From a bacterium (GTDB lineage: Bacteria; Armatimonadota; JACIXR01), in contig JACIXR010000013.1 of NCBI GenBank assembly GCA_014360495.1, positions 1-60,788 on the forward strand: a stretch of 60,788 bases of DNA, written 5' to 3'. How positions within the stretch are numbered: the stretch's first letter is position 1; every line of letters starts with the position of its first letter. Below, piece after piece: positions 2,070 through 5,915 of the stretch. Made by a program: the position numbers and the translations under genes. Under the pieces are notes generated by a model. The model did no database searches and was not told where the DNA came from. It saw only the letters and a program-made list of their open reading frames with translations.

Positions 2070-2075
2070 AATCCA

Positions 2076-2113
2076 CCTTGCCCTCCCCCTTTGGGGGAGG
2101 GCAAGGTTTTTTT
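2076..2113 (+). terminator. intrinsic terminator after the Tat protein gene
   Basis: A perfect 14-bp stem (2076-2089 with 2093-2106) with a TTT loop is followed by seven T residues at 2107-2113. The T run overlaps the stop codon of the convergent gene at 2112. There is no A run on the left side, so it should work mainly for the plus-strand gene. Confidence 0.93.
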
Positions 2114-4499
2114 AAATATTGATGATACCTGCCCCCTTTATGGGAACGCATCGTCCCATCCTCGGCTCCAGCCCTCTCGGTTCATAATATCCCTCTATCA
2201 ACGCCCTCTCCACATCCGCAACCGCTTCTTCCTCAGCCAAAATCATTATTGAGCCTCCCAACCCCGCCCCCAAAATCTGCGCCCCCAAAACTCCCTTAAC
2301 TCTCCTCGCGAGGTCCACCATATAGTCTATCTCAGGGGTGCTACAGGCGTAATCGCCGGGCTGATAGGCGAGAGTGAATTCTTTCCTTTCCGGATATTCA
2401 CCCCTCATTTTTATCAATTTATCAAGATATTCATCCGATACATCGTTCTTATGGGGAACCATCTCTCCCTTTTCGTTAAGTCTCTTCACCCTATCTCCGT
2501 CGTGAGAGATGTTTATGAGCTCGGCGAGGGAATGGATATCGCCATTTTTTAGTAGCTCGGGACAAATCCTGCTTCTTGCACATTCGGCGATGCCGAATAG
2601 ACAAACCCCTCGCACGGGAAATACATCCAAATGGTCAGCGTTACAGCGCTCCAAAACCTCCTCTCCCTCCTCTCCCAGCTCCCTCAACACATCCTCCTTT
2701 CTCATAGATATAGGAAGGGCTTTCAAGAGACGGAATATCTCCTCATCGCTCAATCCCTTCTCCTCAGGGTGGAGGTCCCTTAGATGCTCTATCTCAATCT
2801 CTCTTTTGAGGAGACGAGTCCCGATTTCGTAGGCGGCAATCCTTTGGTTGAAAGTATCCCTTGCCCATCCCGCTTTTTGAGCTTTTTGATGCGAGTAAGC
2901 ATAGAGTATGGCGTAGCCTTTTGGCAAGGGAACGCTTTGGACATAGGAGAAGGGATGGAAGGAGAACTGATTAACGCAGAAGGGGCTGCCGAATTTAATC
3001 CCGGCGTGGTCTCCCATACCTCCCCTTGTCTGAACGAACCATTCCCCTTCACCGCAGAGATGGACGAATCTCTCCTCGGGGATTTTGAGCCCATTTATTA
3101 GGCAGGAAGCCTCAGCGAAGGCGACTACCAGTGCGGAGGAGGAGCTCAAGCCCGAGCCAACCGGTATATCCCCAAAAACGAGGGCATCAAAGCCCTTGAA
3201 AAGCCTATCCCTAAACCTCTCCTGAAGCATTAGGACAGATGCCTTAGCATAATTCACCCAATCGCCTTTGCTTTGGGCGATTTCGTTTTTCAAATCGGGT
3301 AAATTTATCAGCTCAGCCCAATCAAGCCAGCGATATTTGGCGAACTCCTCGCTTATGCTGAAGGAGCGAGGTGGATACGATTCATCTGAATTGACGAGAT
3401 GAACAATATCGTCCTCTCGTGGATGGACCACCATAAGGATTTCCCTATCTATTGATATGCTGTTAATCATCCCGCCCCTATGGTCTATGTGACGCCCAAG
3501 GATGTTGAGCTTGGCGGGAGAGCGAACGAGAAAGACGAGAGCGTCTTCTCCCATAGCCTTAATAAATTCTTCAAGCAGTCTCTGAAAATCCCTGCGTCTT
3601 CTTTCCCAAAGCCAGGCTTCATTCCCGTATATCCCTTTCAAAACGCTTTTTATCTCATCTCCATAAAAGATGGAGAGCCATTCTCTCGCGGGCTTGAGGC
3701 TTCTCTCATTCAATAGGTTCTCTTTTTTCTCTATGAATTGCACCTTCCCAACTTTCCCCTCTATTTCACTTAGCTCCTCGGGAGTATTGAAGGTGAGGAT
3801 TTTCTCCTTATCAACTATGAAAGTCCCTATTGACAGACCTTTCTCATAGAAGAGGGAAACTACATCCGTTACCTGTTCCTCTCCGCTATGGGGGTCTTGT
3901 TTAATCAGTGGAAGTGCTTCGTAGAGTGGAGAAGCTTTGAACATGTAAATGGATTGATTCGTTTCGCCGGTTGGGGGGAAGTCCTTTTCCCTTCCCTTGC
4001 TCTCCAGAATTGCCATGACCTTTCCTGCCTCATCCCGTATTATCCGCCCAAAGCTCTTCCCCTCCGAAAGGCAGGTTGCGAGGAGAAGGTCGTAGCCTCC
4101 TTTTTCAAACTCTTCCCTCATAGCCATTAGCGATTCGCCCTCAACTATCTTGTCCCCGGCGATAATGAGGAGATTTCCCTGGAAATTTATCGTTTGGAGA
4201 TAAGAACAGGCGCATTTCACCGCATGTCCCGTTCCCTTTGGTTCTTCTTGGAGAACGAAGTTGACATCCTTGAATTCCTTCTCAACGGTGGTGATTACCT
4301 CCTTGTATTTATGACCCACGACGACCAAAATGTTGGGGAAACCGCAGTTCTTAAGGGTGGCTATCGTCCTATTTATAACTGGTATTCCACCAACCGAATG
4401 GCAGACCTTGTTTCTTTCAGAACTCATCCTCGTTCCTTTACCGCCGGCGAGGATTACCGCAACCCAACCCTCTTGCGGAAAGGGGGAGTTAATCTTCAT
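2112..4499 (-). CDS. nucleotidyltransferase / GHMP (galactokinase-like) sugar kinase fusion
   Basis: This 795-residue protein joins two enzymes. Residues 1 to about 265 form a sugar-1-phosphate nucleotidyltransferase: LAGGKGTRM near residue 18, the GTGHAV segment and an AGD metal-site motif resemble the GlmU uridylyltransferase domain. Residues from about 320 to 795 form a GHMP kinase close to galactokinase: a substrate motif of the form LNILGRHIDHRGG near 330, the ATP loop PVGSGLSSSSA near 445, and a GLGGS motif near 748. Such a fusion could phosphorylate a free sugar at C1 and convert it to an NDP-sugar, as bacterial fucokinase/GDP-fucose pyrophosphorylase does, but the sugar is unknown. 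ATG 4499 overlaps the arsC-like stop codon (ATGA), so translation is probably coupled. Domain order (transferase first) is seen; substrate is inference. Confidence 0.85.
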   Translation of the reverse strand: MKINSPFPQEGWVAVILAGGKGTRMSSERNKVCHSVGGIPVINRTIATLKNCGFPNILVVVGHKYKEVITTVEKEFKDVNFVLQEEPKGTGHAVKCACSYLQTINFQGNLLIIAGDKIVEGESLMAMREEFEKGGYDLLLATCLSEGKSFGRIIRDEAGKVMAILESKGREKDFPPTGETNQSIYMFKASPLYEALPLIKQDPHSGEEQVTDVVSLFYEKGLSIGTFIVDKEKILTFNTPEELSEIEGKVGKVQFIEKKENLLNERSLKPAREWLSIFYGDEIKSVLKGIYGNEAWLWERRRRDFQRLLEEFIKAMGEDALVFLVRSPAKLNILGRHIDHRGGMINSISIDREILMVVHPREDDIVHLVNSDESYPPRSFSISEEFAKYRWLDWAELINLPDLKNEIAQSKGDWVNYAKASVLMLQERFRDRLFKGFDALVFGDIPVGSGLSSSSALVVAFAEASCLINGLKIPEERFVHLCGEGEWFVQTRGGMGDHAGIKFGSPFCVNQFSFHPFSYVQSVPLPKGYAILYAYSHQKAQKAGWARDTFNQRIAAYEIGTRLLKREIEIEHLRDLHPEEKGLSDEEIFRLLKALPISMRKEDVLRELGEEGEEVLERCNADHLDVFPVRGVCLFGIAECARSRICPELLKNGDIHSLAELINISHDGDRVKRLNEKGEMVPHKNDVSDEYLDKLIKMRGEYPERKEFTLAYQPGDYACSTPEIDYMVDLARRVKGVLGAQILGAGLGGSIMILAEEEAVADVERALIEGYYEPRGLEPRMGRCVPIKGAGIINI

Positions 4500-4936
4500 A
4501 AGCGAAGCTCTATCCCTCCTCCTTTCTCTTGAGAGAAGGTCTCAATGAGCCATTCCTTGATTCCCTCTCTGATTTCCCTGACCTTTTCCATAATCTCCTC
4601 ATCTGAGCCCTGTAAAGAGGCGGGGTCGGGGAAGCTCTTGTGGAGGTATATCCTCCCACCAGGGAAGAAGGGGCAATTCTCCTTTCCCTCTTCGCAGACA
4701 GTTACCACATAATCAAATTCCCAGCCGTTGAATTCCCCCAAGCTTTTGGGGCGATTCTTGGATATATCTATTCCTATTTCCGCCAAAGCTTTAACCACAA
4801 AGGGATTGACCCTTTCGGCGGGCTCAATTCCCGCGCTATAGGCTATGTAATTCTCTGGATAGAGATTATTCAAGAGAGCTTCAGCCATTTGGGAGCGGGC
4901 GGAATTATGAATACAGATGAAAAGGACTTTTTTCAT
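4496..4936 (-). CDS. ArsC-like low-molecular-weight phosphatase / arsenate reductase
   Basis: The 146-residue product matches the low-molecular-weight protein tyrosine phosphatase fold used by thioredoxin-dependent arsenate reductases. The P-loop CIHNSARSQ (Cys8 to Arg14, CX5R) lies at the N terminus, followed by AEALLN and SAGIEP segments typical of the ArsC branch, and a DYVVTVCEE stretch with a second cysteine; a CPFFPGG segment supplies a third. This pattern supports arsenate reduction in the cytoplasm, although a phosphatase role cannot be excluded. ATG 4936 follows a GAGGAATT site and overlaps the upstream TGA by one base; the TTG at 4939 is less likely. No arsenite pump or ArsR is beside it; it sits between an AMMECR1 gene and the kinase fusion in a tightly packed operon. 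Confidence 0.85.
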   Translation of the reverse strand: MKKVLFICIHNSARSQMAEALLNNLYPENYIAYSAGIEPAERVNPFVVKALAEIGIDISKNRPKSLGEFNGWEFDYVVTVCEEGKENCPFFPGGRIYLHKSFPDPASLQGSDEEIMEKVREIREGIKEWLIETFSQEKGGGIELRL

Positions 4937-5493
4937 CAATCTAATTCCTCTTCACTGAACACCTCTGCGGAGAATTTATAGATTTTCGTCTCCGGGTCCT
5001 GCCAGCAATCTATGGGGAGACCTGCTTTTAGGCAGGTGTGTTGAAGGAAGGTTTCCCTATCCCAATTGTTTTCCGTTGCCACTTGAGGAAGAAGCAATCC
5101 TCTATAAAAGCCCCTGATAATATACAGCCCGTGCTTTCCGACCTCTATTTCCTCAATATCTTTCACTTCTTCAAGTGGGGAGAGGACGGAAATCTCTATT
5201 GTTATAAGGGGGAGCTCGTCCAAGGTCAAGGGCGGAAAGCGAGGGTCTTCAATAGCGGCTGCCACAGCCATTTCGGCTACTGTTTGATATAGTGGTTTTA
5301 GGGCTTCTATCATGCCGATACATCCCCGGAGGAATCCCGCTTTCTTGAGGGTAACGAAGGCGCCTTTTCTCTCCAGAAGGGTGGTGGAGGAGGGAGAGAA
5401 AGTAGGGATTCTCCTATTTTTGAGATACTCCTCAATGGAGGTTCTCGCTATATTCAATAGCTCCTTCTTTTCCTCTACTCTCAAGGTATTCAT
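4936..5493 (-). CDS. AMMECR1 family protein (AmmeMemoRadiSam system protein A)
   Basis: The 185-residue protein carries the AMMECR1 core: a GAFVTLKK segment, the family signature LRGCIG, then AAAIEDPRFPPL and a VLLPQVATENNWDRE-like region. Family members are small cytosolic proteins of unclear activity; in many bacteria they are neighbours of a Memo-like dioxygenase and a radical SAM protein. Neither partner is in this window, so this copy is an orphan. ATG 5493 follows AGAGGTG with good spacing; a GTG at 5502 lies within that site and is less likely. The stop codon overlaps the start of the ArsC-like gene by one base, which makes this the first gene of a three-gene coupled operon. Confidence 0.88.
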   Translation of the reverse strand: MNTLRVEEKKELLNIARTSIEEYLKNRRIPTFSPSSTTLLERKGAFVTLKKAGFLRGCIGMIEALKPLYQTVAEMAVAAAIEDPRFPPLTLDELPLITIEISVLSPLEEVKDIEEIEVGKHGLYIIRGFYRGLLLPQVATENNWDRETFLQHTCLKAGLPIDCWQDPETKIYKFSAEVFSEEELD

Positions 5494-5512
5494 TTTCAAC
5501 ACCTCTTTTTAA

Positions 5513-5569: not shown

Positions 5570-5915
5570 AGTGGTGGAGCACTTTCCTCTCATTGCGAGG
5601 GGCGAAGCGACTTTTCTGTCATTGCTGGCATGGGTAAAGGTTTTTGAAAAATAAATAAAAGATGAAGAAACAGATTGAAAAAGGAGGACCTGGCAATTGC
5701 ATTCATTCTCTATGATTAAATACGAGATTGCCACGCCTTCTGCGAAGCAGAAGGCTCGCAATGACAATGGGGCTCTTATCCCGCTACGGAAGGAATTGTC
5801 GCTAAAACCTATACCCATAGATGCGAGCGATAGCGAAGCAATCTCTTTGAGATTGCCGCGGCTTTCCTTCGGAAAGTCTCGCGATGACGGGTTTTTCTCC
5901 CTCAAAGGAGATTAT
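5570..5915. repeat. REP-like intergenic repeat cluster, copy B
   Basis: Second large copy of the repeat at 1-360. Positions 5688-5828 match 92-232 almost exactly, including the CTTCTGC GAA GCAGAAG hairpin; after that point the two copies diverge into different small hairpins (here CTTTCC TTC GGAAAG near 5870). A further unit with ATTGCGAGGGGCGAAGCGAC lies near 5580. Open frames on both strands across this region are repeat artefacts. Confidence 0.8.

Follow-up and report, generated by a model that had tools for sequence, protein, structure and literature searches.

A widespread bacterial family of fused GlmU-like nucleotidyltransferases and galactokinase-like kinases, predicted to salvage free sugars as nucleoside diphosphate sugars

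The stretch of DNA analyzed here, called the window, comprises 60,788 nucleotides (positions 1 to 60,788) of contig JACIXR010000013.1 of assembly GCA_014360495.1, from a bacterium of the Armatimonadota. Its minus strand contains a gene for a 795-amino acid protein, the fusion, in which a GlmU-like nucleotidyltransferase precedes a galactokinase-like GHMP kinase. The fusion is a real and well-conserved protein that is predicted from its sequence to be a bifunctional salvage enzyme for nucleoside diphosphate (NDP) sugars, and it belongs to a widespread family of which no bacterial member was found described in the literature searched, i.e., the top-ranked results among open-licence papers. Its anatomy gives good support to a logic like that of FKP, the Bacteroides L-fucokinase/GDP-fucose pyrophosphorylase (excerpts of PMC11982464 and PMC6468028), by which a free sugar would be converted via the sugar-1-phosphate into an NDP-sugar. 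With slightly less than even confidence, we propose that an acidic hexose derivative is converted into a UDP-sugar for glycan synthesis, a proposal in which we infer the activities, the use of UTP and the substrate. The C-terminal kinase would use ATP to phosphorylate the anomeric hydroxyl group of a free hexose derivative carrying an acidic group at C6, i.e., galacturonate, glucuronate or an acetamido-hexuronate. The N-terminal domain would join the sugar-1-phosphate to UMP from UTP, UTP being the probable donor because this domain resembles GlmU, and the UDP-sugar produced would feed glycan synthesis. The fusion and its parts are located as follows.

2112-4499, minus strand: gene for the fusion, 795 amino acids, with an N-terminal GlmU-like nucleotidyltransferase and a C-terminal galactokinase-like GHMP kinase (Pfam/NCBIfam profiles, AlphaFold2 model, fold matches)
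3750-4463, minus strand: nucleotidyltransferase domain, residues 13-250 (GlmU models at up to 151 bits over residues 14-248; VIA-align to M. tuberculosis GlmU)
4407-4460, minus strand: nucleotide-binding signature AVILAGGKGTRMSSERNK, residues 14-31 (G20, R24, M25 and K31 in 39/39 sequences)
2130-3572, minus strand: GHMP kinase domain, residues 310-790 (PF10509, PF00288, PF08544; closest solved sequence human GalNAc kinase, 2a2c)
3471-3497, minus strand: kinase motif I, GRHIDHRGG, residues 335-343 (alignments to galactokinases and GalNAc kinase; family columns)
3006-3029, minus strand: TRGGMGDH, residues 491-498, which holds Asp497 (alignment to GalNAc kinase; family columns)

An initial annotation, made from the sequence alone, had proposed a GlmU-like transferase followed by a galactokinase-like kinase in one chain, and profiles, motifs and a confident structural model agree on this arrangement. 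The N-terminal part matches the Pfam models NTP_transf_3 (60 bits, cut-off 27) and NTP_transferase (PF00483; 59.3 bits, gathering score 21.2), and the kinase part matches GalKase_gal_bdg, the galactose-binding signature domain (36.4 bits, cut-off 23.1), GHMP_kinases_N (49.4 bits, cut-off 22.3) and GHMP_kinases_C (39.7 bits, cut-off 21). With the latter two both over their gathering scores, the protein falls within the GHMP kinase superfamily. It remains under the equivalog cut-offs for galactokinase (TIGR00131; 125.9 vs. 226.65 bits) and for GlmU (TIGR01173; 145.3 vs. 366.85 bits, over model positions 3-236 of 452 only). The AlphaFold2 model, based on 39 sequences, has a mean predicted local distance difference test score of 90.8 and a predicted template modeling score of 0.75. 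Its top match in Foldseek is human N-acetylgalactosamine (GalNAc) kinase GALK2 (2a2c, E 5.2e-28), which is also the closest solved kinase by profile (187.8 bits, followed by yeast galactokinase at 150.6, that of L. lactis at 130.7 and human GALK1 at ~110). In VIA-align, the modeled kinase superimposes on P. furiosus galactokinase (Z 37.5, 350 residues, 1.8 Å) and on GalNAc kinase (Z 35.7, 420 residues, 2.6 Å), and the modeled N-terminal domain on M. tuberculosis GlmU (Z 33.2, 243 residues aligned, 1.7 Å).

Both folds have retained their catalytic residues, as the model and the alignments show. In an alignment of 39 sequences of the fusion family, numbered here after the window protein, the GxGTRM signature of the transferase is kept and G20, R24, M25, K31, Q84 and G89 are found in all 39. 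D116 is present in 35 and replaced by His in the other four, E166 is present in 35 with four gaps, and N181 and N238 are present in 35 and 32, respectively. The N181 column is presumably that of the GlmU sugar-site Asn (Asn169). One GlmU Gln (Gln79) is Pro in the window fusion, and the column varies across the family. Given this substitution and the His at position 116 in 4/39, some members may differ in their transferase site. In the kinase, GLSSSS, GAGLGG and Asp497, by homology presumably the catalytic base, are kept. Mutated active sites, which would have spoken against a pathway, are absent from the window fusion and from nearly all homologues, the His at position 116 in 4/39 being an exception, and domain anatomy and catalytic residues together support the suggested salvage route, similar to that of FKP in logic and built from other domain families.

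The fusion resembles the N-terminal uridylyltransferase of GlmU in its fold and nucleotide-binding signature and, in most members, in the sugar-site Asn and Glu. It differs in lacking the acetyltransferase domain, and a separate, true GlmU is encoded elsewhere in the source genome (535 bits, cut-off 366.85), as are GalK and GalT. Since all three are present, the fusion probably does something other than these enzymes; a role as a substitute for GlmU or GalK was considered and rejected for the same reason. A further GHMP kinase of 357 amino acids with the motif GEHQDF (L030:1324-2397, on G000:C3) scores under the listed galactokinase and mevalonate kinase cut-offs.

The fusion is not peculiar to the window. 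Among 61 genomes, i.e., the window's own and 60 relatives, at least 11 encode a full fusion (the window's, G001, G002, G004, G005, G019, G025, G032, G034, G043 and G053). As both other genomes of the same genus carry it at full length (66 and 63% identity) and 76 of 90 family kinases are fused, it is not an accident of assembly. A wider genome scan gave 373 relatives; the 80 best were retained and belong to the Planctomycetota, Chloroflexota, Armatimonadota, Lentisphaerota, Hydrogenedentota, Bacillota, Spirochaetota, KSB1 and others. A search for the same fusion, as had been advised, thus finds it widely and in many phyla. The 90 kinases counted come from 100 loci (L033-L132), minus seven that duplicate other contigs, as judged by equal length, and four without a called core gene (L080, L086, L091 and L106), plus the window. 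A kinase was considered fused when the same open reading frame (ORF) had a BLAST match to the N-terminal domain of the window protein at E 0.001, and kinase-only when it had none; besides the 76 fused kinases (including L076 and L131, although contig ends cut both), 11 are kinase-only and three are cut by a contig end. In the kinase-only locus L051, the transferase is present as a separate, adjoining gene, and in L127, 268 residues precede the kinase, in which no transferase motif was seen by inspection. On a tree, three changes between the fused and kinase-only states are needed, compared with 10.5 when the labels are shuffled; for this reason, the fusion looks old and seldom undone or remade. 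According to record titles, the family also occurs in rumen and gut bacteria, and several members sit among polysaccharide-synthesis genes.

A sister form of the kinase has NPH(S/C)DHQG instead of GRHIDHQG (L051, from G029; L133, from G042; L052; and L134-L137). In G029 and G042, where the form is NPHSDHQG, the two domains are encoded by neighboring genes in different frames, the GlmU-like gene directly adjoining that of the kinase (L051 and L133). A third form, with the motif FLEYLDM or FLEYMDI in open frames of 622-670 amino acids (L138-L143), was left aside from the family counts.

The nearest described architecture found is that of zebrafish DrGKUP, a glucuronokinase/putative UDP-glucuronic acid pyrophosphorylase. 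According to excerpts of the paper describing it (PMC3938481), this protein consists of an N-terminal bacterial-type nucleotidyltransferase and a glucuronokinase that acts specifically on glucuronate (Km 31 µM), and it was found using a plant glucuronokinase as a query; the excerpts also name a plant galacturonic acid kinase, GalAK, and state in the legend to figure 3 that such proteins in bacteria and archaea encode the pyrophosphorylase only. Likened by this description, DrGKUP and the fusion both have a transferase domain followed by a GHMP sugar-1-kinase and would lead from free sugar to UDP-sugar. In contrast to DrGKUP as described there, the members of the window family are bacterial fusions whose kinase resembles galactokinase. 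FKP, too, has kinase and pyrophosphorylase in one chain and converts free sugar to NDP-sugar, but it uses fucose and GDP, and no fucose-pyrophosphorylase domain is among the six Pfam matches of the fusion at E 0.001, which sets it apart from FKP. GALK2 (2a2c, 2a2d) shares an FNxR motif with the fusion kinase, but has Glu in GEHIDY and TEGG where the fusion has Arg, and its solved chain is a kinase alone. GalAK is a stand-alone kinase used with a UDP-sugar pyrophosphorylase; presumably, it shares with the fusion an HIDHQGG motif and an Arg placed five positions ahead of the catalytic Asp, which is a lead only.

Nucleotide-sugar enzymes of the short-chain dehydrogenase/reductase (SDR) type are enriched next to the fusion. 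Relatives of SDR enzymes, searched with four seeds, make up 11 of 281 genes at one or two genes from the fusion vs. 2 of 458 farther away (Fisher p 0.0007). When ten of these neighbors were classified, seven scored best, albeit under the cut-off, with the model for the UDP-GlcNAcA C4-epimerase TviC, two were dTDP-glucose dehydratases over the cut-off, and one was mixed. UDP-sugar dehydrogenases, scoring nearest to models for UDP-N-acetylhexosamine (UDP-HexNAc) substrates (TviB/WecC-like), are located at most two genes away in L055, L062, L113 and L072, the first three of which are closely related. GlmS is found near the fusion in L057 and L058, close relatives of each other. Taken alone, proximity to the fusion was not significant for dehydrogenases (p 0.07), glycosyltransferases (p 0.06), GlmS (p 0.56) or acetyltransferase (p 0.64). 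A gene for a IIC-IID permease of the phosphotransferase system (PTS) and one for an HPr/enzyme I-like protein precede the fusion in L061:4620-10442 (by Pfam) and L079:4313-10682 (by eye); two of the operon-neighbor proteins scanned match these families. In a Spirochaetales locus (L116:931-10700), the genes ahead of the fusion include a series resembling, by eye, those for microcompartment shell proteins, and RpiB and a DeoC-like aldolase were identified there by Pfam.

Judged from these data, an acidic sugar is the most likely substrate and neutral GalNAc or N-acetylglucosamine (GlcNAc) the main rival. Three lines of evidence bear on the choice, the first being that two sugar-site motifs contain more basic residues than those of the aligned kinases, suggesting a carboxylate at C6. 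The GEH(T/I)DY sugar-binding motif of galactokinases and GalNAc kinase, with its Glu, is absent from the window fusion, which has GRHIDH instead; Arg336 replaces the Glu and His340 the Tyr of the aligned galactokinases and GalNAc kinase, and in TRGGMGDH, Arg492 and His498 replace Glu and Gln of GalNAc kinase. We take the Glu of galactokinase to contact the sugar O6; as this residue is Arg here and three further positions in the two motifs became Arg or His, the substrate would be acidic at C6. All seven positions R336, H337, D339, H340, R492, D497 and H498 are invariant in the 39 aligned sequences. Among 20 homologue loci picked by whole-protein similarity and not by motif, TRGG is present in all 20; at position 336, 16 loci have Arg, one has Met (L046), one has Val (L045) and two have Pro (NPH..D; L051 and L052). 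The second line is that the kinase is nearest to GalNAc kinase, with which it shares Phe550-Asn551-x-Arg, and the transferase to GlmU, which suggests a 2-acetamido sugar. The yeast and L. lactis galactokinases have Tyr for this Phe; across the family alignment, the position is Phe in 33, Tyr in five and His in one. The third line consists of the neighboring SDR enzymes and dehydrogenases of the UDP-HexNAc/uronate type. A 2-acetamido-hexuronate would fit all three lines. A plain uronate would agree with the first and partly with the third, and a neutral HexNAc with the second and third. N-acetylmuramic acid, in an AmgK/MurU-like route, was rejected as a substrate, since the Asp at position 339, which presumably binds the sugar O3/O4 and is kept in 39/39, would be expected to clash with the lactyl ether at C3.

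Several points weigh against an acidic substrate. The invariance in the alignment partly reflects selection, because the 39/39 counts depend on loci that had been retrieved with the patterns GRHIDH[QR]G and EW[YF]VGTRG; and GalNAc kinase and GlmU, the nearest relatives of the two domains, both act on neutral sugars. The seeds for the SDR search were drawn from fusion neighbors themselves, which favors enrichment, and of the 155 families matched by 115 operon-neighbor proteins, the 25 commonest include none for uronate degradation (from 131 proteins listed; spurious-looking, very long or surplus ones were dropped by hand). In addition, the fusion directly follows PTS genes in two Chloroflexota loci, L061 and L079, and these would deliver a sugar-6-phosphate. 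The broader proposal is that Arg and His residues have adapted the galactokinase sugar site of a widespread bacterial family, whose single chain would convert free acidic sugars into UDP-hexuronates or UDP-acetamido-hexuronates without recourse to UDP-sugar dehydrogenases. This is possible but is put forward with considerable reserve.

Salvage of a neutral HexNAc, in which free GalNAc or GlcNAc would be converted via the 1-phosphate into UDP-GalNAc or UDP-GlcNAc by what would amount to GALK2 and a UDP-HexNAc pyrophosphorylase in one chain, is unlikely without being negligible. It would account for the closeness of the kinase to human GalNAc kinase, for the shared FNxR, for the sugar-site Asn in 35/39 and for the UDP-HexNAc-type neighbors, i.e., TviC-like epimerases, TviB/WecC-like dehydrogenases and GlmS in L057 and L058. 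However, it leaves the basic changes unexplained, as the Glu in both GEHIDY and TEGG is Arg here, and L057 and L058 are hardly independent. The basic residues, and the PTS genes upstream in two loci, would also suit a kinase acting on a C6- or C7-phosphorylated sugar, as HddA does on heptose-7-phosphate, with a phosphatase acting between the two steps. The initial annotation had suggested a phosphatase role for the ArsC-like protein encoded next to the fusion, which would be the candidate. This is improbable: neither G001 nor any of the loci searched beyond the genus has ArsC next to the fusion, the ArsC-like protein retains redox-type cysteines, two fused activities are unlikely to have a dephosphorylation between them, and the genome encodes a separate HddA-like kinase (205 bits, under the cut-off of 600).

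Just as doubtful, in our view, is a nucleotidyltransferase domain that lacks catalytic activity or serves in regulation, with the kinase working alone. Such a state would fit the 11 kinase-only members, the variable column in which Gln (Gln79) became Pro and the His at position 116 in 4/39. Also, according to the excerpts, transferase activity of zebrafish GKUP could not be demonstrated in a standard in vitro assay (PMC3938481). Yet, the six invariant residues, D116 and N181 in 35/39 and the retention of the fusion across many phyla argue against it.

The fusion gene is the last of three overlapping genes, near which the remaining features are found.

4496-4936, minus strand: ArsC-like protein with low-molecular-weight phosphatase fold; C8, C81 and C88 counted from Met (LMWPc match; relative in G002, L034)
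4936-5493, minus strand: AMMECR1/AmmeMemoRadiSam system protein A (PF01871, 207.2 bits; TIGR04335, 204.4 bits)
2075-2107, plus strand: terminator-like stem between the operon end and the convergent gene at 636-2069 (consensus match; scored on the plus strand only)

The span of 2112-5493 given earlier for these genes is correct. They overlap by 1-4 bases in the order AMMECR1, ArsC-like, fusion, with TGATG at the first junction and ATGA at the second; in the ORF list, AMMECR1 starts at a GTG at 5502 and the ArsC-like protein at a TTG at 4939. The two promoter-like sites on the minus strand upstream of 5493 are not above chance (6 found vs. 3.6 ± 1.9 expected). The overlap of the genes in a single operon, and the adjacency of AMMECR1 to the fusion in 3/3 genomes of the genus, would favor the view of the initial annotation that the three proteins form one pathway. 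However, the ArsC-like gene adjoins the fusion in 2/3, being absent in G001 by tblastn, and neither partner was found by tblastn in 96 other loci, 91 of them distinct (the core gene was placed in 89 distinct loci, including two from the genus, and in 71 of these the upstream sequence extends for 1.5 kb or more). Moreover, Memo, the AmmeMemo radical S-adenosylmethionine (SAM) proteins, which are the named partners of AMMECR1, and the arsenite exporter Acr3 are encoded elsewhere in the genome. A single pathway is thus extremely improbable and was rejected: the operon is a genus-level arrangement and does not indicate a pathway, and both neighbors probably have ordinary functions of their own. 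The AMMECR1 protein exceeds the cut-offs of PF01871 (25) and TIGR04335 (99), and because Memo (C2) and two radical SAM proteins over the cut-off (C1 and C9) are encoded away from the operon, it is predicted to be the A component of its usual set. The ArsC-like protein scores 71.7 bits with LMWPc (PF01451, cut-off 23.2) and under the cut-off for thioredoxin-type ArsC (TIGR02691; 98.6 vs. 174.3 bits). It keeps the P-loop CIHNSARS and the two further cysteines, C81 and C88, the pattern of the thioredoxin-coupled arsenate reductases. With these cysteines and Acr3 (C1), it is best read as an ordinary arsenate reductase and not as a sugar phosphatase. Overall, the earlier interpretation holds for the anatomy of the fusion and the salvage logic, but not for AMMECR1 and ArsC as parts of a pathway.

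The operon is transcribed toward the convergent gene at 636-2069, and the strong stem at 2075-2107 is scored on the plus strand, which is that of the convergent gene. This gene encodes a 477-amino acid protein that weakly matches sulfoquinovose isomerase (46 bits, cut-off 700) and the central domain of L-arabinose isomerase and has, by eye, a twin-arginine-like start; it appears to be an unusual isomerase relative. Two copies of a 152-nucleotide repeat (81-232 and 5677-5828; 97% identical) flank the region. The genome contains 41 matches to 144 nucleotides of it, nine of which cover all 144 bases at 82-100% identity, indicating a dispersed repeat family.

To our knowledge, bifunctional sugar kinase/pyrophosphorylases are few. 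Such enzymes let an organism reuse free sugar for surface glycans, and they serve in enzymatic nucleotide-sugar synthesis. If the substrates of the fusion family are indeed acidic sugars, the family would correspond in bacteria to plant GalAK with UDP-sugar pyrophosphorylase and to zebrafish GKUP. A single enzyme would then lead to UDP-uronates, and bacteria would have a second way of making these compounds.

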